From Achromobacter sp. AONIH1 (lineage in GTDB: Bacteria > Pseudomonadota > Gammaproteobacteria > Burkholderiales > Burkholderiaceae_B): a DNA stretch of 64,000 nt. The stretch spans positions 2,976,001-3,040,000 of the forward strand of contig NZ_CP026124.1 in NCBI RefSeq assembly GCF_002902905.1. Reading direction: 5' to 3'. Shown here piece by piece: positions 52,856-64,000 of the stretch. The translations under genes and the position numbers were made by a program. The notes below the pieces were generated by a model. That model ran no database searches. It saw only the letters and a program-made list of their open reading frames with translations, and was not told the DNA's origin. Positions within the stretch are counted from its first letter, which is position 1. The number at the start of each line of letters is the position of its first letter.

Positions 52856-53854
52856 ATGCCGCCGAGGCCGCGCTGCGTTCCCGCCGCGCCCGGCCGCCGG
52901 CGCCTGTTGCAGGCGCTGGCGCTGGGCGCGTTGTCGCCGCTGTCGGCCTGCGCGCCGCGCCGGCCGGTGCAAGGCACCTTCCTGCAGCTGTGGCGCAGCC
53001 ACCTGGACCTGACGCCCGCGCAGTGGGCCGAGCGCATCGCCGCCTGCCGCCGCCTGGGCAGCCGCGAGATCTTCCTGCAATGGGTCGGCCTGGAAGGCGG
53101 CAGGCCCGACGACTGGATGGCGCCCGACGCCGTGCTGGGCCAGATCTTCGACGAGGCCGCGCGCCACGGCATGGGCGTGCACGTGGGACTGCCCTACGAC
53201 CAGCGCTGGTGGAACGTGCTGGCCACGCCCGATGACGAGGCGCTGGCGCGCTACCTGGTCCTCACCCGCGAGCAGGGCCTGGCCTACATGCGGACCGCGC
53301 CCTGGTCCGCGCGCCGCAATTTTCGCGGCTGGTATCTGCCGTATGAACTGGAGCAGTACAACTGGGCGTCCGCGCCCCGCCAGGCGCTGCTGTGGCCGTG
53401 GCTGGACGCCTTTGCGCGCGCGGCCTTGGACAACAGCGGCCGCGCGCCCTGCATCTCGACATATTTCAGTCGCCTGGGCGGCAGCGGTACGCTGGAACAG
53501 CTGTGGCGCGGCATCCTGGACCATGCGCGCGTGCATCCCATGATCCAGGACGGCGTGGGCGTGGCGGGCCTGGACAACCTGAAGGCGCTGGAGCCGCTGC
53601 GCCGTTTGCTGTTGGCGCGCCATGCGCCGTTCGATCTGGTCATCGAACTGTTCGAGGAGCTGCCCTCGGGCAGCACGGATGGGTCCACCTTCAAGGCGCG
53701 CTCGGCCGATTTCGAGCGGGTGCGCAAGCAATGGCTGATCGCCGACAGCTACGGCGCGCAGCGCGTCGTGGCCTTCGCGCTGGATCCCTGGGTCATCGGC
53801 GACAGCCCCGAGGCGCGCGTGCTGCGGCAGGCCTGGATGCGGGCGCGCGCCTGA
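52856..53854 (+). CDS. DUF4434 putative lipoprotein, TIM-barrel glycosidase-like
   Basis: A 332-residue product beginning exactly after the YidB stop. An arginine-rich N terminus and hydrophobic core end in a lipobox-like SPLSAC, so it is probably a lipoprotein. The body (GTFLQLWRSHLDLTPAQWAE; LGSREIFLQWVGLEGG; MGVHVGLPYDQRWW) fits DUF4434, a family with a predicted glycoside-hydrolase-like barrel. Substrate unknown. It converges, 21 bases apart, on the last gene of the glycan-modification operon, but is not part of it. A polysaccharide-processing role is only a guess. Confidence 0.72.
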   Translation: MPPRPRCVPAAPGRRRLLQALALGALSPLSACAPRRPVQGTFLQLWRSHLDLTPAQWAERIAACRRLGSREIFLQWVGLEGGRPDDWMAPDAVLGQIFDEAARHGMGVHVGLPYDQRWWNVLATPDDEALARYLVLTREQGLAYMRTAPWSARRNFRGWYLPYELEQYNWASAPRQALLWPWLDAFARAALDNSGRAPCISTYFSRLGGSGTLEQLWRGILDHARVHPMIQDGVGVAGLDNLKALEPLRRLLLARHAPFDLVIELFEELPSGSTDGSTFKARSADFERVRKQWLIADSYGAQRVVAFALDPWVIGDSPEARVLRQAWMRARA

Positions 53855-53875
53855 TGCGTGTCGGCCGTCGCGGTT

Positions 53876-55006
53876 TCAGGCGAAGCCGCGGCCGATGATC
53901 TCCCGCATGATTTCGCTGGTGCCGCCGAACAGTCGCAGCGCGCGCGCATCGGACCAGGCGCGGCCGATGCCGTATTCCGCCATGTAGCCATAGCCGCCAT
54001 ACAGCTGCAGCAGCTCATCCAGCGCCTTGCCCTGGATCTCGGTGGCGTTCAGCTTGGCGATGGCGGCGGTGGTGGCGTCGAGTTCACCCGCCATCAACTG
54101 CGCCAGGCAGTCGTCGAGGAAGACGCGCAGCATGACGCTTTGCGCGCGCGCGTTGGCCAGGATGAAGCGCGAATTCTGGTAGTCGATGACGCGGCGGCCG
54201 AAGACCTTGCGGCCACGGATGTATTCAGCGGTTTCCTCCAGCATGCCTTCCAGCGAGGCGGCCGCGCGCAGCGCGATGGCCAGGCGCTCGCGCGCCAGTT
54301 CGCGCGTCAGGTATTCGAAGGCCGCGTTCTCTTGTCCCAGCAGGCAGTCGGCGGGCAGGCGCAGGTCGTCGAAGAACAGCTCGCAGGTGTCCTGGCTGTG
54401 CTGGCCGATCTTGTCCAGCGGCGCGCCCTTGGCGTAGCCGGGCAGTCCGGCCTCGACGCAGAATAGCGACAGGCCGCGCGCGCCCAGGTCGGGCGCGGTG
54501 CTGGCCAGCACGATGGCCAAGCCGGCGTTCACGCCGTTGGTGATGAAGGTCTTCTGGCCGTTGAGCACGTAGTGGTCGCCGTCGCGCACGGCGCGGCTGC
54601 GGATCGCCTTCAGGTCGCTGCCGGCGCCGGGCTCGGTCAGCGCCAGCGCGCCGATCAGCTCGCCCCGCGTCATGGCAGGCAGCCAGCGCGCTTTCTGCGC
54701 CTCGGTGCCGAAGGCGTCCACGTAGGGCGCCACCATGTCCGAATGGATGGAAAAGCCGATGCCCAGATAGTTGGCGCGGGCCAGTTCCTCGATCACCACC
54801 GCCGCGTGTCCGAAGTCCCCGCCCAGGCCGTAGGGCTCGGGCAGGGCGCAGTTGAGCAGGCCTTCCTCGCCCGCGCGGCGCCAGAGTGAAGCCGGCGTGA
54901 CGCCGGCCTTTTCCCAGGCGGCATAGTGTGGCGCGATCTCCTGCGCAATGAAGCGGCGGACCTGATCGCGGAACAGTTCGTGGTCGTCTCGGAATACGCG
55001 GCGCAT
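53876..55006 (-). CDS. acyl-CoA dehydrogenase, last gene of the surface-modification operon
   Basis: A 376-residue FAD acyl-CoA dehydrogenase. It shows TEPGAGSDLKAIRSRA (FAD/substrate region), GQKTFITNG, KVFGRRVIDYQ and GGYGYMAEYGIGRAWSDARA. The C-terminal position that carries the catalytic Glu in most of the family is glycine (LFGGTSEI). The glutamate at E240 (ARERLA) matches the catalytic position of long-chain and isovaleryl types, so it is probably active. It begins nine bases after the AlgF-like gene in the same operon as an adenylating enzyme and a carrier protein. It could oxidise a carrier-bound acyl group, as PltE-type enzymes do to prolyl carriers, or be an ordinary fatty-acid enzyme. 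Confidence 0.85.
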   Translation of the reverse strand: MRRVFRDDHELFRDQVRRFIAQEIAPHYAAWEKAGVTPASLWRRAGEEGLLNCALPEPYGLGGDFGHAAVVIEELARANYLGIGFSIHSDMVAPYVDAFGTEAQKARWLPAMTRGELIGALALTEPGAGSDLKAIRSRAVRDGDHYVLNGQKTFITNGVNAGLAIVLASTAPDLGARGLSLFCVEAGLPGYAKGAPLDKIGQHSQDTCELFFDDLRLPADCLLGQENAAFEYLTRELARERLAIALRAAASLEGMLEETAEYIRGRKVFGRRVIDYQNSRFILANARAQSVMLRVFLDDCLAQLMAGELDATTAAIAKLNATEIQGKALDELLQLYGGYGYMAEYGIGRAWSDARALRLFGGTSEIMREIIGRGFA

Positions 55007-55015
55007 GCCGCCTCC

Positions 55016-55696
55016 TTACTTGTTGCCGTAGGGATCGGTGGCGCTGACTTGACCCGTCAACGTCGGCACGGCGGCGGTGCCGCCGAGGAACAGGCTGTAA
55101 TGATCGCCGGGCTGTAGCGCGGGCAGCGCCAGCTCGGCGCTGGCGGCCGCGCCGCAGGCGCCGGCCAGCGAAGCCCGCACGGGATTGATGGCGCGCGCGG
55201 CGGCGGTCTGCGGTTTGATATCGTCGAACAGCGTCGGGCCTTGCGGGCTGACCTTGAGCGCCGCGCCGGCGCAGCCGGGGATCAGGTTGTAGAAGCGCAG
55301 CTCGGCCTTGAGCGCGTCCTGCGCGCCGCCGCTGTCGTCGATGCGCGCCAGCGTGACCTTGCCGCCGTCGCGGCGCGCGACCAGGGTGGTGAAGCTGTCT
55401 GGCGCCACCTGCAAGGCGCCGGCGGGCTTGCCGTCCACCTGCACCTTGAATTCCTGGTCGCCTTTGACGATGGCGTAGGTGGTGGCGGGCTTGGACGGGC
55501 CGATGTCCTGGGCCGGGCCGCCGGCGACCTGGGCGCGCATGGGCGCGCTCTCGGGATTGACGATGCGCACGAAGGACGAGCCGGCGGGCGGCCGGGCGGC
55601 GTACAGCTGGGCGAAGGCGCCTTCGGCGCGGGCCGCGCCGGCGGCGGCCAGCGCCAGGCCCAGCGCCAGCAGGGTCGGGGAAAGACGAGGGGTCAT
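55016..55696 (-). CDS. AlgF-like periplasmic O-acylation protein
   Basis: A 226-residue exported protein with a signal peptide (LLALGLALAAAGAARA) and a beta-rich body (FAQLYAARPPAGSSFVRIVN; TTYAIVKGDQEFKVQVDGKP; AELRFYNLIPGCAGAALKV). It resembles AlgF, which relays acetyl groups in alginate O-acetylation. The ATG at 55696 overlaps the preceding adenylation-gene stop (ATGA), so the two are coupled. With an MBOAT and two AlgX/AlgJ-like proteins in the same operon, a role in transferring an acyl group to a glycan in the periplasm is the best reading. Confidence 0.78.
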   Translation of the reverse strand: MTPRLSPTLLALGLALAAAGAARAEGAFAQLYAARPPAGSSFVRIVNPESAPMRAQVAGGPAQDIGPSKPATTYAIVKGDQEFKVQVDGKPAGALQVAPDSFTTLVARRDGGKVTLARIDDSGGAQDALKAELRFYNLIPGCAGAALKVSPQGPTLFDDIKPQTAAARAINPVRASLAGACGAAASAELALPALQPGDHYSLFLGGTAAVPTLTGQVSATDPYGNK

Positions 55697-57168
55697 GCTT
55701 TGGGCTCCGGTTTCTTGCTCAGGCGCGCATCCAGGTACAGGCGTTCCAGCTGCTTGCGGTCGGCCTTGTCCGTGCTGGTGGTGGGGAAGGGGCTGCAGGA
55801 CAGCAGCTCCGACGGGATCATGTAGGGCGGCAGGCGACGGCCCAGGGTGTCCTTCCAGGCCGCCAGCGCTTCGGGCAGCGGCTGCAGGCCGGCGGCTCCC
55901 GGCGTCGCCGGCTCGACGAAGCCGATCAACCGGACGATGGCACCGTCCGGCCGGCGCAGCGCCACCGTGGCGCCGGCGCGCACGCCGGGCAGCGCCGCGA
56001 TCGCCGCGTCGATCTCGGCCAGTTCGATGCGATAGCCGTGCAGCTTGATCTGGTCGTCGATGCGGCCACGGAACGTGATCAGGCCCTGGCCGTCGATCTC
56101 GCCCAGGTCGCCGCTGCGGTAGCCGCGCTTGCCGCCGCGCGTGAACATGCGCGAGGCGTTCAGGTCCGGCCGGTTCAGGTAGCCGCGCATGACATGGTCG
56201 CCGGCGATGCAGATCTCGCCCTGGTCGATGAAGACGTCGGCATAAGGCTTGGCGCGGCCGATGGGGAAGGGATTCGGCGCGGCCTGGCGCAGCGCCGCGT
56301 CGATCTCGACCCAGGTGGTCGAGCAGGTGGCTTCGGTCGGACCGTAGGAATTGATGATGCGCGCATCGGGGAAGCGCTGCCACAGTTCCTCGGCCAGCGC
56401 AGGCGAGAGCGACTCGGCGCCGAACACGAAGACGCGCAGGCCAGGCAGGCTGGCGCCGTTGAAGTCCGGGTTGAACAGCTGCTGCCGCACGAAGGATGGC
56501 GTGGACGCCCAGACCGCGATGCCGGTGTCCGCCAGGTACTGCATGAAGGCGCCGCGCTCGGCGATGGTCTCGCGCGGGCACAGCACGCAGGCGCCGCCCA
56601 GTTCCAGCGCGCCGACCCAGTTGAACAGCGAGAAATCGAAGCTGAACAGCATCTGGTCCATGAACGCGGGCGCGGCGCCCAGGCTCAGGCAGTCACGGAT
56701 CCAGCCCGCGAACAGCGTGACGCTTTCGCGCCCGATCTGCACGCCCTTGGGGTCGCCGGTGCTGCCGGACGTGAACATGATGTAGGCCAGTCCGGCCTCG
56801 CGCAGCGGCGCGGGGCTGGCGCTGCCCGGCTCGAAGGCCTGGGCCTGCGCGTCGTAGCGCAGGCCGGCGCGCACCAGCTCGCCGATGCGCTTGATGCGTT
56901 CGGGCGGATTGATCACGTCGACGGGCACGAAGGGCACGCGCAGCCGCAGGCAGCCCAGCATGGCGACCAGGAAGGCGGTTTCCTTGTGGCCGGAGATCAC
57001 GATGGGCACGCCGGCGACGGCGCCGGCATTCAGCGCGGCCTGTTCCCAGGCCTGGACCGCCGCCTGCAGCGCATCCCAGCGCAGGACGCCACGGGCATCC
57101 ACCACGGCGATCGCGTCGCGCGCCGAGCCGGTGTCGGCGAAATCGTAGGCCTTGAAATCGAAATGCAT
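55693..57168 (-). CDS. DltA-like adenylating enzyme (amino acid/acyl carrier protein ligase)
   Basis: A 491-residue ANL-family ligase that should activate a carboxylic acid with ATP and load it on the carrier protein encoded upstream. Motifs: P-loop MFTSGSTGDPKGVQIG (from residue 131), FSFDFSLFNW, VWASTPSFVRQQL, NSYGPTEATCSTTW, YRSGDLG, and the C-terminal lysine in STDKADRKQLERL. It resembles D-alanine ligase DltA throughout. At the position where DltA has Cys in FMFCGE, which shapes the D-alanine pocket, this protein has glycine (FVFGAE, G250), so the substrate may differ. Bordetella has a dlt-like dra locus that adds D-alanine to a surface component. The start has AAGGAG seven bases upstream. 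Confidence 0.85.
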   Translation of the reverse strand: MHFDFKAYDFADTGSARDAIAVVDARGVLRWDALQAAVQAWEQAALNAGAVAGVPIVISGHKETAFLVAMLGCLRLRVPFVPVDVINPPERIKRIGELVRAGLRYDAQAQAFEPGSASPAPLREAGLAYIMFTSGSTGDPKGVQIGRESVTLFAGWIRDCLSLGAAPAFMDQMLFSFDFSLFNWVGALELGGACVLCPRETIAERGAFMQYLADTGIAVWASTPSFVRQQLFNPDFNGASLPGLRVFVFGAESLSPALAEELWQRFPDARIINSYGPTEATCSTTWVEIDAALRQAAPNPFPIGRAKPYADVFIDQGEICIAGDHVMRGYLNRPDLNASRMFTRGGKRGYRSGDLGEIDGQGLITFRGRIDDQIKLHGYRIELAEIDAAIAALPGVRAGATVALRRPDGAIVRLIGFVEPATPGAAGLQPLPEALAAWKDTLGRRLPPYMIPSELLSCSPFPTTSTDKADRKQLERLYLDARLSKKPEPKA

Positions 57169-57194
57169 GCGCGGCTCCTTTGCAACAGCGGCGT

Positions 57195-57434
57195 TCAGGC
57201 GCCCTTGCGCTCCGCGATGAAGGCAGCCAGGGTATGCACCGATTCTAGGTGCACGTCGATCTCGGTGGGCGGAATCTTGCAGCCGAACTCGCGCTCCACC
57301 GCCAGCGCCACGTCGACCGCCGCCAGCGAATCCACCAGGCCGGACTCGATCAGCAAGGTGTCGGGATCGACCTGAGTCAGGATGACGTTCTCGATGAGCG
57401 TGGCCACTTTGGCTTCGATAGTCTTGATATCCAT
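57195..57434 (-). CDS. acyl carrier protein (DltC-like)
   Basis: A 79-residue carrier protein with the phosphopantetheine attachment motif LVDSLAAVD, serine S36, and the usual helix pattern (VDVALAVEREFGCKIPPTEI). It lies between the MBOAT and adenylase genes with 25- and 26-base gaps. Its place and size match DltC in dlt operons. It should carry the group activated by the DltA-like enzyme to the membrane acyltransferase. Confidence 0.9.
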   Translation of the reverse strand: MDIKTIEAKVATLIENVILTQVDPDTLLIESGLVDSLAAVDVALAVEREFGCKIPPTEIDVHLESVHTLAAFIAERKGA

Positions 57435-57459
57435 GCAATGCTCCGGGACCGCGTCGCGG

Positions 57460-59040
57460 TCAGAATTGGAAATAGAGAAACCGGGTTTCCTTGTGCAGGT
57501 TGACCAGGCAGAAGAACAGCAGGGCCAGCATCACGGCCAGCCAGCCCAGGGTGGGGCGCCAGCGCATCCACGGCGTGGCGGCCTCCTGCGGCTTGAACAG
57601 CGCGGGCGAGTAGCGGCCCAGGATCTGATGCGCGTTGGGCGTGAACCAGGCGATGCCCAGCAGGACGACCGCGTAGATCAGCTGCATATGATGCCCCAGC
57701 AGCATGCGCCAGGCGTCGCCCCAGGCCAGCCCGTCCACGCGCGCGGCCAGGTCCAGCGCCTCGACGCCGCGCATGCCGATCATGCCCTGCACCAGCAGCA
57801 TCGCGTCGCCCACGCCATTCGCGCGGAAGAAGGCCTGCGCCACCAGCACGGCGACGAAGGTCAGCAGCACGCAGGCGGCGCGCTTGGTCGGGCCCATCTG
57901 GCGCGCGGCGGCCGGCTTGCGGCCGACGACGAAGATCCGCCAGGCGTGGTTCACTGACAGGTACATCGCGTGCAGCAGGCCGAACACCAGGAACTGGAAG
58001 CCGGCGCCGTGCCAGATGCCGGCCAGTCCCATCGTGTACACGGTGGGCAGGATGATGCTGCCGGCAAAGCCGCCCGGCGTGGCCACGCCCTGCGTGCCCA
58101 CCGGCAGATTGCGCTCGGTGCGCCACTTCGACACCGCCATGGCCACCGGGTAGTAGAGATAGGCGGTCAGGTAGCGGGTCAGCGTCATGTGCCAGCGGGC
58201 CCAGAACTCGATGATGCTGCCGGCCTTGTACGGCGAATTGAAGTTCAGCGGGAAGCGGATGCCGAACATCTTGGCCAGGCCCAGCGCCATGTCCGAGTAG
58301 CCGGAGAAGTCGAAGTACAGCTGCAGCGCGTAGCACAGGCTGGCGCCCCAGGAGCCCCAGAACATCAGCTCGCCGGGCGCGGCGAAGCCGGCGTCGGCAT
58401 AGGGCGCGATGCCGTCGGCCAGCAGCACTTTCTTGGCCAGTCCGATCACGAACAGCATCATGCCGACCGACAGGTTCTCGGCCTTGAAGCGGTAGTTCTC
58501 CGGCTGCGCGAACTGCGGCATCATTTCTTTGTGATGCAGGATGGGGCCGGCGATCAGGTGCGGGAAGAAGGTCACGAACAGCACATAGCTGAGCAGGCTG
58601 CGCTCCTTGACCACGCCGGCCTTGCAGTCGAGCAGGTAGCCGATCTGCGTGAACGTGAAGAATGAGATGCCCAGCGGCAGGATCACCGAATCCGCGGTCG
58701 CGCTGCTCATGCCCAGGTCATTGAGAAAGCCCAGCAGCGCGGCGAAGTACTTGTAGTGGAACAGCAGCGCCAGGTCGGCGCCCACGCCCAGTCCGGTGAT
58801 CAGGCCCTGCAGGCGCGGCCGGCCCTCGCTATGCAGGATCAGCTGGCTCACCGCATAGTTGAAGGCGATGGAGCCGGCCAGCAGCACCACGAACTGCGGG
58901 TTCCACCAGCCGTAGAACACGATGGATGTCAGGCACAGCCAAAGCGCCGCCAGGCGCAGGTTGAGCGGCCCCACGGCGTAATACACGGCCAGCGTGATGG
59001 GCAGGAAGACCAGCAGGAACAGATAGGAATTGAATAGCAT
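57460..59040 (-). CDS. MBOAT O-acyltransferase (DltB/AlgI type)
   Basis: A 526-residue polytopic membrane protein starting MLFNSYLFLLVFLPITLAVY. It has the MBOAT core SPYKAGSIIEFWARWHMTLT (H284) and the invariant catalytic histidine H344 in LAGIWHGAGFQF. Such proteins move an acyl or D-alanyl group from a carrier protein or CoA across the membrane to a periplasmic acceptor. It sits between the SGNH pair and the carrier-protein gene, nine and 25 bases away. Confidence 0.93.
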   Translation of the reverse strand: MLFNSYLFLLVFLPITLAVYYAVGPLNLRLAALWLCLTSIVFYGWWNPQFVVLLAGSIAFNYAVSQLILHSEGRPRLQGLITGLGVGADLALLFHYKYFAALLGFLNDLGMSSATADSVILPLGISFFTFTQIGYLLDCKAGVVKERSLLSYVLFVTFFPHLIAGPILHHKEMMPQFAQPENYRFKAENLSVGMMLFVIGLAKKVLLADGIAPYADAGFAAPGELMFWGSWGASLCYALQLYFDFSGYSDMALGLAKMFGIRFPLNFNSPYKAGSIIEFWARWHMTLTRYLTAYLYYPVAMAVSKWRTERNLPVGTQGVATPGGFAGSIILPTVYTMGLAGIWHGAGFQFLVFGLLHAMYLSVNHAWRIFVVGRKPAAARQMGPTKRAACVLLTFVAVLVAQAFFRANGVGDAMLLVQGMIGMRGVEALDLAARVDGLAWGDAWRMLLGHHMQLIYAVVLLGIAWFTPNAHQILGRYSPALFKPQEAATPWMRWRPTLGWLAVMLALLFFCLVNLHKETRFLYFQF

Positions 59041-59049
59041 CGCGGTTCG

Positions 59050-60150
59050 TCAGGGCGGGGGCAGGCTGTCCAGCACGGACCTTTCGTCATCGGTGAGCGG
59101 CAGCGACAGCGCCATTTCCGAAAACTCCCAGACCACCAGTTTCAGGCTTTTGGGCCATTGTTCACGCTGTTTCAGCGCCAGCAGCAGCGCGCCGGAGAAC
59201 TGTCCGCCGTCCAGGCTCAGGTTCCAGATTTCGCGGCCCAGTCCCATGCCCAGCCGTTCGGCGAAGTGGCTGCGGCGGCCGTTCGAGCTGCCGGCCAGCA
59301 GCACTTCGACAGGCGGCGCTTCGTCCAGCAGGCCGCCGCTGCGCAGCGGTTCGATCTGCTGCGGGGCGACGCGCTCCAGCTCCGGACGCCAACCCATGCG
59401 CGCGTGTTCCAGGCCGGCCAGCACGATCAGATCGCCCATGCGCGGCGCCGGCGCGCCCGGCGCGTCGACACGGAAAGCCTGCTGGCCGACGCCGCCCAGC
59501 AGCGGCAGCGCGGCGTCGGCCACGCGTCGCGCGGCGGCTTGCGCGCCTTGCGCGTTCATGTGCACGTCGGTGCGAAAGAACATGGGTTCGGCCGCGCCGG
59601 ACAGGGCGGGGCGCAGATCGACGAAGGGCACGCCCTGCGCCTGCAGCGCCCGTTGCCAGTCGTCCAGCACGCGTCGCATGGGTTGCGAGGCGGGCAGGCC
59701 GCAAAGCCGGTCGGCCTCGATGCGCGATTTGTCGGGCACCGCGACCACCAGCAGTTGCACCTGCCGCTGACGCAACTGATCGGCCCAGTGCCGCATCAGG
59801 CGCACGCGCTCGTCGAACACATGCACGCCGGGCCGGGGGCGCAGGCCGTCGCGGTAGAACAGCCAGCCGGGGCAGCCCATGGCGACCTGGTCGCCCAGGT
59901 CTCCGAGCAGGCGATAGCGCAGCGATGCGTTCCAGGTATTGAGCGTGTCCTGCGCGGGCAGGCGCAGCGCGCGGTTCAGCGCGCCGCCGGCCGAGCCGTC
60001 CAGCCAGGCCGCCGGCGCCACGTCGGCCGGCTTGAGGCCGGCGTCGGCCAGTCGCCAGACGCCCCAACCCAGGCCGAGCGCGAGCAGCAGGCCGGCGACG
60101 ATGGCGTTGCGGCCATGCCCGGCGGTTTGCGGCTTGTCCGCTGATGCCAC
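59050..60150 (-). CDS. AlgX/AlgJ-like SGNH acyltransferase, membrane-anchored
   Basis: A 366-residue protein with one N-terminal membrane anchor (AIVAGLLLALGLGWGVWRL) and a periplasmic SGNH-hydrolase-like domain of the AlgX/AlgJ type. The segments PGWLFYRDGL and VVAVPDKSRIEADRLCG are typical. The Asp-His pair is D195/H197 (FRTDVHMN) and the nucleophile is S288 or S289 (LAGSSNGRR). In alginate and acetylated cellulose systems such proteins finish O-acetylation of the glycan. Four bases separate it from the second copy upstream. Confidence 0.83.
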   Translation of the reverse strand: MASADKPQTAGHGRNAIVAGLLLALGLGWGVWRLADAGLKPADVAPAAWLDGSAGGALNRALRLPAQDTLNTWNASLRYRLLGDLGDQVAMGCPGWLFYRDGLRPRPGVHVFDERVRLMRHWADQLRQRQVQLLVVAVPDKSRIEADRLCGLPASQPMRRVLDDWQRALQAQGVPFVDLRPALSGAAEPMFFRTDVHMNAQGAQAAARRVADAALPLLGGVGQQAFRVDAPGAPAPRMGDLIVLAGLEHARMGWRPELERVAPQQIEPLRSGGLLDEAPPVEVLLAGSSNGRRSHFAERLGMGLGREIWNLSLDGGQFSGALLLALKQREQWPKSLKLVVWEFSEMALSLPLTDDERSVLDSLPPP

Positions 60151-60154
60151 GACC

Positions 60155-61156
60155 TTACTTCCCGATGGCCGCTTGCATGCGGCCGCGCCAGGCGTCGGCG
60201 CTCATGATGGAGGCGTTGTCCCACAGACCCTTGGCGTCGGGGCCCTGCGCGTAGGTCGGTTCGAACATCTGCCACACCAGCACCTGCGGCTTGTTCTGCT
60301 TGAACGCCGGCGACTCCAGGTATTCCAGCAGCATGATCCAGTGGCCGACGTTGCCGGGCTTCCAGTTCACGGATACCGGGCGGTCGAGCGCGTTGGACAG
60401 TTTTTGCGGAAAGCCGAAGTAGGGCTGCACCATGCTGTGGCCGGTGACGTGGACCGGGGCCGGGGCATCGTCCAGCAGGCTCTGGTTCTCGGCCTGGCGG
60501 CGCACGGTGAAGGTCTCGCGTCCGGCCTGCTTGCGCTGCTCGGGCGAGAGGAACAGTTCGGCCAGATCGCCGTAACGGCGTTCGTTGAACACGCTGCCCA
60601 GCGGCAGGCCGGTGCCGGGCTTGCCGGCCAAGGTCTTCACGTCCTGCCTGATGCGTTGCGCCAGCGCGTCGGCGGTGGCGTCGGCGGCGGCCTGCGTCCA
60701 GTGCTGGTCCGTGCGGTAGAACACGTCCTGTCCGCAGTCCTTCAGGCGCCGCAGCACGGCCTCGTCGTCGAAGGTCGCGATGCCCGCGGCCTTGAGCTTG
60801 TCCTGGATGGTCTGGTAGCGCCGCTTCACCTCGGGGCTGAGCGCCTTTCCATCGGGCAGCTTGTCCTGGTAGAACAGCGTCTTGTCCGGCAGCACCAGCA
60901 CTTCGAGCTGGATGCCTTTGGCCGCCAGCGCGTCGCGCGTCTCGCGCACCAGTTGCGTGGACGCGTCGATGCCGCGCGTGTCGACCTGGGTCAGGCTGCC
61001 CCAGCCGGGGAACAGCCAGTTGTCCTTGCCCTGGATCACGATGGACGAGCCTTGCTGCGCGTGCGCGGCGCCGGCGGACAGCGCAAGCGTGGCGACCGCC
61101 GCGCCTACAGCCAGTCGATGCAGGATCGTGGAGGGAGAGGAGGAGAAAAGGGTCAT
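60155..61156 (-). CDS. AlgX/AlgJ-like SGNH protein, secreted
   Basis: A 333-residue exported protein with signal peptide (VGAAVATLALSAGAAHAQ) and an AlgX/AlgJ-type SGNH domain: IQGKDNWLFPGWGSL, VLPDKTLFYQDKLP, D150/H152 in YRTDQHWTQ, and a candidate nucleophile S241 in VTGHSMVQ. It is distinct from the membrane-anchored copy next to it, so the pair may act in sequence, as AlgJ and AlgX do. The ATG at 61156 is supported by the signal peptide; a frame continuing upstream is antisense to the NfrA-like gene's true frame and is rejected. Confidence 0.85.
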   Translation of the reverse strand: MTLFSSSPSTILHRLAVGAAVATLALSAGAAHAQQGSSIVIQGKDNWLFPGWGSLTQVDTRGIDASTQLVRETRDALAAKGIQLEVLVLPDKTLFYQDKLPDGKALSPEVKRRYQTIQDKLKAAGIATFDDEAVLRRLKDCGQDVFYRTDQHWTQAAADATADALAQRIRQDVKTLAGKPGTGLPLGSVFNERRYGDLAELFLSPEQRKQAGRETFTVRRQAENQSLLDDAPAPVHVTGHSMVQPYFGFPQKLSNALDRPVSVNWKPGNVGHWIMLLEYLESPAFKQNKPQVLVWQMFEPTYAQGPDAKGLWDNASIMSADAWRGRMQAAIGK

Positions 61157-61182
61157 GCGTGCTCCTTGCGATGCGGGCGGGG

Positions 61183-63948
61183 TCAGTACGACAGGGTCAG
61201 GTTGATGAACAGGCCTTTCGCCCGGTCGGCGGCGCCCCCGCCGATATTGAATCGATATTGCGTCGTCAGGTCCAGATAGGACCGTGGCGCGTTGTAGTGG
61301 TCTTCGCGGAACCAGTAGCGCAGGTTGAAGCCGGGGCCCGCGCCCAGGGACCAGGATTTGCCGTTGCCCAGCAGGTCGTAGGAATCCTGGCCGTCGATGT
61401 TCAGGCCGGACACGCGGTTGCGGTTCCACAGCCAGTCCGCCGCCACCACCGCGTAGGGGAAGAACACCAGTCGGTCGCTGATGGCGTCCACGCGGTAGCT
61501 GCGGCCCACGCGCAGTTCGCCGGCGCCGAAGGCCTGGTCGCGTTTGAGCTTGCCCGAGCTTTCCGCGCTGTCCTTGCCCGAGTTGTTGTCGCGTAGCCAG
61601 AAGCGGGCGGGCATGTCCTGCCAGGAGTAGCCGGCCTGCACATAGCCTTCCATGGTGAACCAGTCGGGGCGGTCGATGCGCAGGCTGGTGCCTTCGTACA
61701 TGCCATAGGTGACATAGGCCAGCCAGCCGCCGCTGCCGGCGTCCGTCTTGTAGTGGGCGGTCTGATTGCCGGTGTTCAGTGCGCAGCGCAGTTCGTCGGG
61801 CCGTGGCGTGAACGTGCCCTGCCGCGTGGCGCTGCCCAGGTTGAACTGGCGTTCCAGGCCGAAGGTCAGGCCGACCTCGGTGGACGGCGTGAAGCGCATG
61901 CCCAGCGAGCCCACGGTGGTCGGAAGGCCGGAAATGCCGTTGTTGGATGTTTCGTCCACCTGGATATTGCCGCCGCCGCAAGGGTTCGACACGGTCTGGC
62001 TGGCGGTCTTGCCGCCGTTGTTGTACAGCGTGTTGGACAGGCGGCCGTACAGCTCGAAGGTGCGCGTGGACGAGTTCAGGAAATCGGAGGGACGCCAGAA
62101 GATCTCGGCCGTGCTGAACACCGCGTCGCCGGGCACCGTGATGGCCGCGCCGCCCAGGCCGGACGAGGCCGGCCGCGCGCCCCGGTAGCCGGTCGAGATG
62201 TAGCCGCCCCACTCGCGCGACAGGCCGGCGATGCTGCTGCGGGTATCGAAGCGCTGCTGCGGGGTCAGGTCGAGCTTGCCGGCGTCGTCCTGGTCGATGG
62301 CTTCCTTGAGCCGGTCCACCGCGCCGCGCTTGTCGCCCACGCCGGACAGCGCATAGCCTTCGTCGAGGATGGCGGTGGGCGGGGCCTTGCCCGTGGCGCG
62401 CGCGGCCTGGAAGTCGCGCAGCGCCTCGCGGGGCTGGCGCATGCGCTGGTGCAGATAGCCGCGCTGCATCAACAGCGTCGGATCGTCGGGCTGGGCCGCC
62501 AGGGCCTCGCTCATGCGCTGCTTGGCCTCGGCCATCTGCGCCGCGTTGCCGGCGGCCAGCGTGGTGGTCAGCAGCCGCTGCAGGTCCTTGCTGCCCGGAT
62601 CCTGTTGCGCGGCCTTGCGGGCCTGTGTGATGGCTTCCTGGTAGTCCTGGCGCGCATAGGCGGCATAGGCCAGCGAGGCCGGCCCGCCGCTGCCCGCCGC
62701 GTCCGAGGGCAGCAGCTCGCAGGACGTGCCGTAGGGCGTGTCGCGGCAGTCCTGGACCGGCGCGGGATAGTTGGCCAGCGTCAGCGTGGCGGGCACGGCG
62801 GGGCGGGAGCGGGCGCGCTTGACGCGATCGGCGCCGGCCTCGTCCTTGGCGCCCAGCGGTTCCACCAGGGCCAGCGCGCGGGCGCTCTGGCCCCCGGCCA
62901 GCGCGGCATCTGCGGCGATCAGGCGCACATTGCGCCGTTGGCTGTCGTCCAGCCAGTCCTGCTTGAGCGCGGCGTCGAAGTCGGCGTCGGCTTCCTCGGT
63001 CTTGCCCTGGCGCTGGCGCAGATAGCCGCGCATGACCAAGGCCACGGTGTTTTCGTCGTCCTGCCTGAGCGCGTCGGTGGCCGCGTCCTCGGCGGCCGCG
63101 AGCTGGCCGTCCAGCATCAGCGCGGTCATCAGCAGCAGGCGGTGGCTGGCGGTGTCGGGCGCCAGCGCCACGGCTTGCCGCGCCAGCGGGACGGCGTCGC
63201 CAGGCCGGTTGGCGATCAGCGCCTGATAACCCTGTTCCGCCGGCTTGACCGCCATGCGCCGCTTCATGGTGGCGCGACGCGCGGCCAGGTCGCTCTGGTT
63301 CGGCGCGCCCAGCGTCATCGCCTGGTTGGCGGCCGTTTCGGCTTCGGCGTACTTGCCCTGGGCTTCCAGCGCGTCCAGCCACAGCATGGCCCAGGCGCCC
63401 TGCTTGGGATCGATGCGGAAAGCCTGCTCGGCGCCGCGCTGGGCGGCGGGGTAGTTGCCGCTGTTGTAGTCCGCGTAGGCGCGCGTGGCGATGGGGAAGC
63501 CGCGGCGGTAGGCGCTGGTCGTGGCCGGCGCGCCCCCGGCGGGGCGGGCGCCGGCCGGACGCGCATTGGCCGCCGGGGCGGCGGGCGTCGCCGGACGCAG
63601 ATTGGCGCGCGCCTGCCGCAGCGCGGGCGTGTCCAGGCCGCTCTTGACGGCATCGTCGGCGGCCCGTTCGGCCTCGTCCAGCTTGCCCTGCTTCTGCAGC
63701 GCGTAGATCAACAATAGGCGCAGGCGTTCGACGTCCGGGCGCAGCGCGATCGCCGATTCGGCCTGCTGCTGCGCCTGCGCGTAGCGGCCGGCGTCGTAGA
63801 GCCTGTAGCCCTCGTTGGCGAATTGCCAGGCGGCGCCTTCCAGCGGCGCCTCGGCGGCGCGCGCGGCCTGCTGGGCGGCGGCGGGCGCGCCAGTCCACAG
63901 GCAGGCGAGCGCGGCGGACAGGACTAGCGTGCGGGTCAGGGGCGTCAT
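61183..63948 (-). CDS. NfrA-like outer-membrane protein with TPR region
   Basis: A 921-residue exported protein: signal peptide (LVLSAALACLWTGAPAAAQ), then many TPR-like repeats (about 40-520, with Ala/Pro-rich breaks), then a C-terminal beta-barrel region (about 560-921) of the NfrA C-terminal type (GYISTGYRGARPASSGLGGA; GSLGMRFTPSTEVGLTFGLE; LTTQYRFNIGGG; ending FINLTLSY). E. coli NfrA is the outer-membrane partner in export of the glycan used by phage N4 as receptor. The TPR-plus-barrel build is like BcsC and PgaA. Its start overlaps the stop of the gene upstream (ATGA). It likely exports the glycan that the rest of the operon modifies. Confidence 0.85.
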   Translation of the reverse strand: MTPLTRTLVLSAALACLWTGAPAAAQQAARAAEAPLEGAAWQFANEGYRLYDAGRYAQAQQQAESAIALRPDVERLRLLLIYALQKQGKLDEAERAADDAVKSGLDTPALRQARANLRPATPAAPAANARPAGARPAGGAPATTSAYRRGFPIATRAYADYNSGNYPAAQRGAEQAFRIDPKQGAWAMLWLDALEAQGKYAEAETAANQAMTLGAPNQSDLAARRATMKRRMAVKPAEQGYQALIANRPGDAVPLARQAVALAPDTASHRLLLMTALMLDGQLAAAEDAATDALRQDDENTVALVMRGYLRQRQGKTEEADADFDAALKQDWLDDSQRRNVRLIAADAALAGGQSARALALVEPLGAKDEAGADRVKRARSRPAVPATLTLANYPAPVQDCRDTPYGTSCELLPSDAAGSGGPASLAYAAYARQDYQEAITQARKAAQQDPGSKDLQRLLTTTLAAGNAAQMAEAKQRMSEALAAQPDDPTLLMQRGYLHQRMRQPREALRDFQAARATGKAPPTAILDEGYALSGVGDKRGAVDRLKEAIDQDDAGKLDLTPQQRFDTRSSIAGLSREWGGYISTGYRGARPASSGLGGAAITVPGDAVFSTAEIFWRPSDFLNSSTRTFELYGRLSNTLYNNGGKTASQTVSNPCGGGNIQVDETSNNGISGLPTTVGSLGMRFTPSTEVGLTFGLERQFNLGSATRQGTFTPRPDELRCALNTGNQTAHYKTDAGSGGWLAYVTYGMYEGTSLRIDRPDWFTMEGYVQAGYSWQDMPARFWLRDNNSGKDSAESSGKLKRDQAFGAGELRVGRSYRVDAISDRLVFFPYAVVAADWLWNRNRVSGLNIDGQDSYDLLGNGKSWSLGAGPGFNLRYWFREDHYNAPRSYLDLTTQYRFNIGGGAADRAKGLFINLTLSY

Positions 63949-64000
63949 GGGGTGGCGGGTTTGTCGTCGGTGGTCGGGGGCGCGGCTTGGGCCTGCGCGC
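63945..64000 (-). CDS. 3' end of a gene upstream of the NfrA-like gene
   Basis: Only the last 17 codons are in the window. They encode a hydrophilic tail AQAQAAPPTTDDKPATP. The stop overlaps the next gene's start in ATGA, so the two are coupled. By analogy with nfrA-nfrB this could be an inner-membrane glycosyltransferase, but nothing in these residues shows it. Confidence 0.55.
   Translation of the reverse strand, partial: AQAQAAPPTTDDKPATP

Follow-up and report, generated by a model that had tools for sequence, protein, structure and literature searches.

What is made by a bacterial locus in which genes for glycan export adjoin genes resembling those of both teichoic-acid aminoacylation and alginate O-acylation? 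The question is raised by a 64,000-nt stretch of the Achromobacter sp. AONIH1 genome (i.e. contig NZ_CP026124.1, positions 2,976,001-3,040,000, of a single-contig genome of 6.65 Mb), termed the window throughout, for which a preliminary description had proposed a nine-gene operon of dlt-like, alginate-acetylation-like and NfrA-like parts. Our analysis indicates that the locus is probably composed of an NfrB/NfrA/WecB-type glycan system and an exchangeable seven-gene block. The block is predicted to load an aminoacyl group other than D-alanine, likely oxidised, and to pass it onto the glycan through a relay from a membrane-bound O-acyltransferase (MBOAT) to AlgX-type proteins. The features are as follows, in window coordinates.

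52856..53854, plus strand: YbcH-like periplasmic protein (DUF4434; PF14488, 188 bits, cut-off 30), convergent, the conserved right edge of the locus
53865..61181: exchangeable decoration block of seven genes, from AlgX1 to the dehydrogenase, as delimited by blastn against locus L155
53876..55006, minus strand: acyl-CoA dehydrogenase (ACAD), 376 amino acids (aa) (PF02771/PF02770/PF00441), predicted to oxidise the carrier-bound group
55016..55696, minus strand: AlgF-like periplasmic adaptor, 226 aa (PF11182, 58.3 bits, cut-off 34.4), start taken from an ATGA overlap
55693..57168, minus strand: DltA-like stand-alone adenylation enzyme (the ligase), 491 aa, code DFFAVGSCS (AMP-binding, 163.6 bits, cut-off 29.9), first Met of the frame at 57168
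57195..57434, minus strand: carrier protein, 79 aa, phosphopantetheine site VDSLAAV (PF00550 PP-binding, 35.2 bits, cut-off 20.8)
57460..59040, minus strand: DltB-like MBOAT, 526 aa (PF03062, 76.5 bits, cut-off 27; TIGR04091, E 1.8e-49), conserved His344 (IWHG) and C-terminal FLYFQF (Tyr523)
59050..60150, minus strand: AlgX-like SGNH protein 2 (AlgX2), 366 aa (ALGX PF16822, 220 bits, cut-off 26.5), RTDVH and GSS motifs
60155..61156, minus strand: AlgX-like SGNH protein 1 (AlgX1), 333 aa (ALGX PF16822, 241 bits, cut-off 26.5), RTDQH and GHS motifs
61183..63948, minus strand: NfrA-type outer-membrane exporter, TPR and NfrA_C, 921 aa (PF13283, 98.9 bits, cut-off 25)
63945..64000, minus strand: 3' end of nfrB, which extends past the window to position 65642
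65659-67692: open part of a BcsB-like gene, next after nfrB, outside the window
67909-69075: wecB, beyond the BcsB-like gene, outside the window

In the gene run of the preliminary description, eight genes are complete and a ninth (i.e. nfrB) is represented by its tail, all on the minus strand, and its gaps of 4-26 bases and two ATGA overlaps were reproduced once start codons had been corrected. Read from 3' to 5', the spacing is ACAD, 9 bases, AlgF, -4 (ATGA), ligase, 26, carrier, 25, MBOAT, 9, AlgX2, 4, AlgX1, 26, NfrA, -4 (ATGA), NfrB. The ligase and AlgX1 queries used in most comparisons were 6 and 5 residues too long at the N-terminus and the AlgF query was 1 residue too short. All nine parts were detected in 19/19 further named loci scored as carrying the ACAD (a recount including overlapping open reading frames, ORFs), bearing out the wide co-occurrence that had been set as a check. 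Together with the presence of the MBOAT and ACAD in 20/43 Achromobacter genomes, this puts the gene set far beyond chance. The genes and their order in the proposed operon are upheld, whereas its treatment as a single unit is not, as the run comprises a glycan core and a separable seven-gene block. The preliminary description had overlooked the ybcH-like gene, a chemical role for the dehydrogenase, and block exchange.

The identity of the core was examined using profile models and comparisons with E. coli. The gene beyond position 64000 encodes an NfrB-type glycosyltransferase with a motif related to the MshE motif that binds cyclic di-GMP (c-di-GMP), as had been anticipated. Its product exceeded the cut-offs of NF053729 (47.4 bits against 38) and PRK15489 (938 bits against 537) and scored below that of the model named NfrB (581 against 1170). 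Identity to E. coli NfrB was 44% over 539 columns, and the nearest named NfrB was that of A. ruhlandii (91%). The sequence is of the GT2 synthase type, containing TED at 267, QKARW at 330 (i.e. QxxRW) and, as the MshEN-type motif, HDSEDV aligned with HDAEDV of E. coli. WecB gave an equivalog match, whilst the BcsB-like gene matched BcsB weakly (17 of 21 bits). The YbcH-like protein exhibited 28% identity to E. coli YbcH over 282 columns (E 8e-11); the latter, product of the third gene of the nfrBA-ybcH operon, also belongs to PF14488, and a DUF4434 gene was present in 43/47 nfr loci within the stretches examined. The joint presence of NfrB, NfrA_C, the WecB equivalog and the YbcH homologue indicates that the core is the nfrBA-ybcH/wecB system of E. 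coli NGR (i.e. the phage N4 receptor). An NfrB with a c-di-GMP motif, an NfrA exporter, a YbcH-like protein and WecB are shared with NGR, and bare Achromobacter loci are much like it, 12/13 having the ybcH-like gene after nfrA. Unlike NGR, the window locus has an extra BcsB-like protein, has its ybcH-like gene on the opposite strand and carries the acylation block of seven genes; the E. coli nfr operon annotation contains no acylation genes.

Published sources are cited here by PMC number. Clustering of A. xylosoxidans nfrA, nfrB and wecB with BcsB and periplasmic O-acetyltransferase homologues was remarked in 2021 (PMC8669472), and an nfr cluster with alginate-acetyltransferase-like genes was noted in Simplicispira suum (PMC8669469). 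The earlier view that the combination matches no described system consequently does not hold for the core or for this clustering. Among the literature matches listed, whose coverage leaves out most subscription journals, none described an nfr decoration that is fed by a carrier or can be exchanged; clustering of nfr and acetyltransferase genes is already known.

Is the block a unit? A blastn comparison of the window with an Achromobacter NfrB locus lacking the MBOAT (L155) produced a match that ended at the end of nfrA and restarted at the ybcH-like gene, leaving window positions 53,865-61,181 between the two. A locus with the block (L158) was colinear with three loci without it (L155, L153 and L151) at 74-82% identity on both sides and contained ~7.4 kb of extra DNA between nfrA and the ybcH-like gene. 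NfrB was found in 33/43 Achromobacter genomes, and 20/43 have an MBOAT at 85% identity or higher, tallies that count only matches inside E-value limits; among the 20 are G445, counted from two contig pieces, and G441, an incomplete genome in which no NfrB was detected. An ACAD of at least 83% identity occurred in the same 20 genomes, the best reported among the other 23 being no higher than 57% in a search that scored 45 of up to 74 candidates in some genomes. One further genome (G425) had an MBOAT at 61% and carries a different block type (FkbH, locus L154). Thirteen genomes have NfrB but no such MBOAT, and genes of the block were detected at none of their nfr loci; in 12 the ybcH-like gene comes after nfrA, and the thirteenth (L160) had no ybcH-like gene in the 20 kb examined. 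The gap between nfrA and the ybcH-like gene in nine measured bare loci was -4 to 519 bases, the longer gaps fitting a short unidentified ORF. A mobile-element signature was sought at the block edges and rejected, as GC content was unremarkable (68.9%, inside the neighbours' range of 68.0-72.1%) and the repeat search gave imperfect GC-rich matches only. One 21-nt repeat pair (90%), with one copy lying in ACAD and the other in AlgX1, each close to a block edge, is probably due to chance. Homologous recombination in the shared flanks would be a simpler route of block exchange. As a separate observation, an ACAD 52-53% identical to that of the block was found ~16-23 kb from nfrB in seven block-less Achromobacter genomes (G419, G422, G423, G428, G435, G454 and G455), adjoining an AMP-ligase in G419 (L149:16145-18844); this gene is a possible origin of the block ACAD, or a coincidence.

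Differences between block types were assessed across named loci (L056-L135, L148-L160 and L162-L164; L036 = L057, L039 = L086, L051 = L064 and L052 = L081 being duplicate entries). Of 80 related MBOAT loci, 35 also carry nfr genes, i.e. 22 with a window-type ligase (19 with the ACAD), nine of D-alanine (D-Ala) type, three with FkbH and an acyl carrier protein (ACP) and one cut by a contig end. Adding 12 further loci gave 47 nfr loci, comprising 23 of window type (20 with the ACAD), nine D-Ala, four FkbH, ten bare and one of unknown type. FkbH proteins load glyceryl groups onto carriers; those found here scored 311 and 323 bits on TIGR01686 (cut-off 147). In D-Ala-type loci the ligase and carrier are sometimes on the opposite strand, and in FkbH-type loci FkbH and the ACP lie between AlgX2 and the MBOAT.

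Two Pandoraea loci exemplify replacement of the block. P. horticolens (L062, window type) and P. communis LMG 31110 (L085, FkbH type) were 93% identical in the BcsB-like protein (261 aa) and in NfrB, with identities of 38% for NfrA, 45% for AlgX1, 53% for AlgX2, 59% for MBOAT, 43% for AlgF and 53% for the YbcH-like protein. The FkbH-type control pair L085/L089 exhibited 91% for NfrB, 87% for NfrA and 93% for MBOAT. At the DNA level, an 87.3% match between L062 and L085 breaks off close to where nfrB ends, and an 87.6% match (218 bases) restarts ~95 bases past the ybcH-like gene, with only 68-73% matches, in the MBOAT and ybcH-like genes, between these flanks. No window-type ligase was detected elsewhere in the L085, L089 and L086 genomes at E 1e-90 (0/3, with 2/2 positive controls). 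The four FkbH-type rows formed one clade with support of 100 in the MBOAT tree, whereas an FkbH-type clade was rejected for NfrB (p-AU 6.5e-8). These trees omit seven distant or long rows (L087, L095, L073, L078, L088, L069 and L075); fuller 36-row trees agree in direction, their supported branches forcing at least two FkbH-type changes on NfrB and one on MBOAT, although L086 is long-branched and its own placement is unsure. Bare Achromobacter loci were scattered among block-bearing ones in the NfrB tree. The Pandoraea pair and the discordant trees indicate that synthase and coat differ in history. A window-type ligase (P0033) is also recorded under P. communis, yet strain LMG 31110 of that species is of FkbH type, so block switching within this species is possible. 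FkbH genes were additionally observed beside eight related MBOATs, with a carrier-like ORF in 8/8 and no nfr genes in the stretch examined (L091, L092, L094, L122, L124, L125, L132 and L135, of which the L094 MBOAT, at a cut end, has no C-terminal motif); acylation modules of FkbH type apparently act on other polymers as well.

Which group does the window's block load? The ligase pocket reads DFFA[VML]GSCS in 24/24 block ligases, with the amino-acid-binding Asp kept, and D[LV]YV[LV]CTVA, the D-Ala code, in 9/9 sister loci without the ACAD. The genome's own dltA reads LYVLCTVA at the eight variable positions, i.e. a D-Ala code, and differs from the block ligase at all eight; seven differ from every D-Ala-code ligase compared, and at the eighth some ligases of each type have Val. 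In a homologue search that scored 7,998 candidates, the best 120 of 1,001 had Gly (100) or Cys (20) at the selectivity position, which in the block ligase is Gly in place of the Cys of dlt pockets. In B. cereus DltA, Cys269 clashes with L-alanine and its change to Ala loosens D-selectivity, whilst Leu198 touches the D-methyl group (PMC4176424, PMC11253843). As the Cys-to-Gly, Val-to-Ala and Thr-to-Ser changes would widen the pocket and the Leu-to-Phe change would fill the D-side, the predicted substrate of the block ligase is not D-alanine but an amino acid of greater size than alanine, probably in the L-form.

These data bear on whether the block simply D-alanylates a glycan as dlt does, with the dehydrogenase as a passenger. 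The nearest models for the ligase and MBOAT are indeed DltA (TIGR01734, 321 bits) and DltB (TIGR04091, the nearest NCBIfam model, 169 bits), and sister loci on the same core retain the D-Ala code; however, both scores lie under the curated cut-offs (560 and 375 bits), the ACAD occurs only with the switched code, and among the switched positions is that of the Cys on which D-Ala selectivity depends (PMC4176424, PMC11253843). D-alanylation was rejected on the pocket code and is decidedly unlikely. The genome has, moreover, a separate dltCDXBA-like locus (L005:5349-9601; G000:C1 ~1,723,350-1,727,600) with a carrier, DltD, a 67-aa DltX-like microprotein ending FQYQQF, a DltB-like MBOAT and a DltA with the D-Ala code. 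By gene content, this locus is the better candidate for a possible counterpart of Bordetella dra. The dlt comparison made at the outset was misleading, since the block ligase lacks the D-Ala pocket and the genome has this separate dlt-like locus. The block shares with dlt the ligase-carrier-MBOAT logic and the FXYXXF shuttle motif; it differs in lacking the D-Ala code, in having AlgX (PF16822) in place of DltD and a motif fused to the MBOAT in place of DltX, and in its additional AlgF and ACAD. The Vibrio Alm system, which places glycine on lipopolysaccharide, likewise aminoacylates a Gram-negative envelope using an adenylation enzyme and a carrier (PMC11253843). Alm differs from the block in its glycine pocket and its target. 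The Alm transferase is also of another kind.

Does the dehydrogenase belong to this chemistry? The ACAD was found solely with the switched ligase code, in 20/23 window-type loci and 0/24 other nfr loci, a tally that excludes the G419 stretch beyond wecB (L149), where two other ACAD-family ORFs occur. Against solved structures it scored 357 bits with human LCAD, 350 bits with 2pg0 and 159 bits with the prolyl-ACP dehydrogenase 4irn. Glu240, which was Glu in 21/21 block ACADs, aligns with a position where the LCAD chains 8w0t and 8w0z have different residues. A stand-alone ligase, a carrier and an ACAD are the gene trio of the pyrrole-2-carboxyl pathway, and the trio could therefore make this group from proline, as in pyoluteorin and coumermycin, for esterification of the glycan by the relay. 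Such an aromatic ester would be stable, and the ACAD gives E 3.4e-60 with the RedW model. The RedW score (204 bits) is nonetheless far from its cut-off of 650, prolyl dehydrogenases are distant, and FFAVGSCS coincides at 1/8 positions with the consensus of stand-alone proline ligases, L(L/F)YLALVC, and at 0/8 with that of modular ones (consensuses from PMC3874040). The proline codes and the RedW model disfavour this reading, which is highly unlikely.

Ligase/carrier/ACAD trios are common in natural-product clusters. Pyrrolyl-carrier pathways (i.e. loader, carrier and ACAD) and aminomalonyl- or methoxymalonyl-carrier pathways (i.e. FkbH and carrier) feed small molecules; unlike these, the loader and carrier of the block sit in an export-glycan locus. 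Synthesis of a small molecule or modification of a lipid, with co-transfer as the sole reason for proximity to nfr, is extremely unlikely given that exchange, gain and loss affect the trio jointly with AlgX, MBOAT and AlgF and that the ligase gene overlaps that of AlgF by ATGA. Aminomalonyl-type chemistry was also rejected, the 3-hydroxyacyl dehydrogenase of that pathway not being in the block.

How could a carrier-bound group reach the periplasm? The window MBOAT ends in FLYFQF, and an FXYXXF end was present in 78/80 related MBOAT loci, the two without it (L094 and L097) having cut or divergent ends. In PatA, the Tyr of this end is auto-acetylated, and DltX is a microprotein with the same motif (PMC12148441). 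A carrier gene was found in the stretch examined for 45/80 MBOAT loci, 44 of them with FXYXXF, at a distance of up to ~2.4 kb. The 35/80 related MBOATs with no carrier gene in the stretch examined may use CoA donors. Carriers of the window's kind had DS at the phosphopantetheine site in 27/27 cases; the DS pattern matched 37 carriers in all, with L086 and L094, among the 10 ACP-type rows, matching at another DS. AlgX motifs matched by text pattern, and hence limited by the patterns, were found in 30/37 and 25/37 AlgX1 and in 32/37 and 27/37 AlgX2 proteins. According to PMC12148441, no MBOAT/SGNH pathway except Dlt has a carrier; with a shuttle motif fused to the MBOAT and a carrier gene present, the combination seen here falls outside that generalisation. 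If the carrier feeds the MBOAT, as we infer, the block would be a counter-example to the published rule.

The AlgX-type SGNH proteins and AlgF both scored above their Pfam cut-offs, as expected of alginate machinery, and the block shares with alginate AlgI/J/F/X and PatA/PatB an MBOAT with a C-terminal FXYXXF, AlgX-type SGNH proteins and AlgF, although a carrier gene and loader would take the place of the CoA-bound donor of those systems. Acetylation of the glycan from acetyl-CoA, as in alginate, with the ligase, carrier and ACAD serving another purpose, accords with these parts, with the many related MBOATs that have no carrier gene nearby and with the reading of such loci as acetyltransferase clusters (PMC8669472, PMC8669469). 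It leaves unaccounted for the carrier and loader that lie inside the block, between the MBOAT and AlgF, and change along with it, as well as the placing of a loader and carrier between AlgX2 and the MBOAT in FkbH-type loci; acetylation is considered unlikely. The preliminary description had favoured a ligase-loaded group over acetate as the decoration, and inference from the present data leads to the same choice.

The favoured reading, i.e. decoration with a non-D-alanine aminoacyl group, draws on observations of gene content, the ligase pocket, the fused shuttle peptide, residues at catalytic positions, and the presence, absence and replacement of the block. Under this mechanism, WecB would make UDP-ManNAc, the monomer according to E. 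coli work (PMC8669469, PMC8669472), NfrB would polymerise it when activated by c-di-GMP and NfrA would export the glycan. The ligase would adenylate an alpha-amino acid (its Asp being kept), larger than alanine and probably L, and then charge the carrier, on which the ACAD could, as an optional step, desaturate the aminoacyl group. The MBOAT would take the group through the inner membrane and deliver it to the tyrosine in its C-terminal FLYFQF, and AlgX1/AlgX2, aided by AlgF, would ester-link it to glycan in transit through the periplasm. Swapping or losing the block would then alter the coat without altering the synthase, which would fit selection by N4-like phages. Such selection is suggested by the N4 work and by N4-like phages that infect A. 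xylosoxidans (PMC8669472).

Several points weigh against this mechanism. The steps, the type of amino acid, the product and the glycan are predictions from sequence, for which the ligase code was compared with D-Ala and proline codes. NfrA resembles its E. coli namesake weakly outside the C-terminal domain. Codon 45 of this strain's BcsB-like gene is a premature in-frame stop, preceded by a stretch resembling a signal peptide (L003:15692-15850, ~window 67,692-67,850), whereas relatives have intact copies (e.g. 745-787 aa in L038, L037 and L062); the stop may be either a real inactivation or an assembly error, and because of it the pathway may be impaired in this strain. The closest solved ACADs (i.e. 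human LCAD and 2pg0) are CoA enzymes and not prolyl-carrier dehydrogenases, and the best NCBIfam model was the reductase AcrC at 264 of 640 bits, far below cut-off. Three of the 23 loci with the same ligase code lack the ACAD (L063, L065 and L078), the best ACADs in those genomes being 35-36% identical as compared to 77% and 69% for the block ACADs of two controls. These loci break a rule that the ACAD always accompanies the switched ligase, and the ACAD is accordingly treated as a tailoring, optional step rather than an indispensable one. A free-amino dehydro-aminoacyl ester would also be chemically labile. For block replacement, the window-type control pair L062/L063 exhibited 88% identity for NfrB, 60% for NfrA and 79% for MBOAT, so faster divergence downstream of nfrB explains part of the L062/L085 contrast, though not the change of cassette. 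Of the two Pandoraea FkbH loci, L085 alone matches on both sides, L089 having a left match of 84.5% and no right-flank match in the stretch examined.

A wider and more tentative proposal, which we rate as somewhat doubtful, is that the nfr loci form a serotype-like system in which a conserved, c-di-GMP-controlled synthase would be combined with swappable acyl coats (i.e. none, D-alanyl, glyceryl or oxidised L-aminoacyl) through swapping of the nfrA-to-ybcH block at a fixed site, that carrier-fed, tyrosine-shuttle MBOATs would be a large unrecognised class, and that the coat would decide binding of N4-like phages. We know of no polysaccharide bearing an oxidised L-aminoacyl group. The locus joins three fields that have been separate, i.e. 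the phage-N4 glycan receptor, teichoic-acid-type aminoacylation and alginate-type periplasmic O-acylation. The predicted oxidised aminoacyl and glyceryl decorations would escape acetyl assays. Natural pairs with and without the block, or with switched types, within single genera make the role of glycan acylation in phage binding testable.

A prophage-like region starts just past wecB and a CDF transporter gene (L003:18616-19950, L004:3453-8428). This region encodes an integrase, a ParB-like protein, an RVT_1 reverse transcriptase and an Lcl_C-domain protein, the last of which overlaps one of three copies of a 141-nt repeat (83% to the reference copy). The arrangement is reminiscent of a diversity-generating retroelement, although A is not the only base at which mismatches occur.

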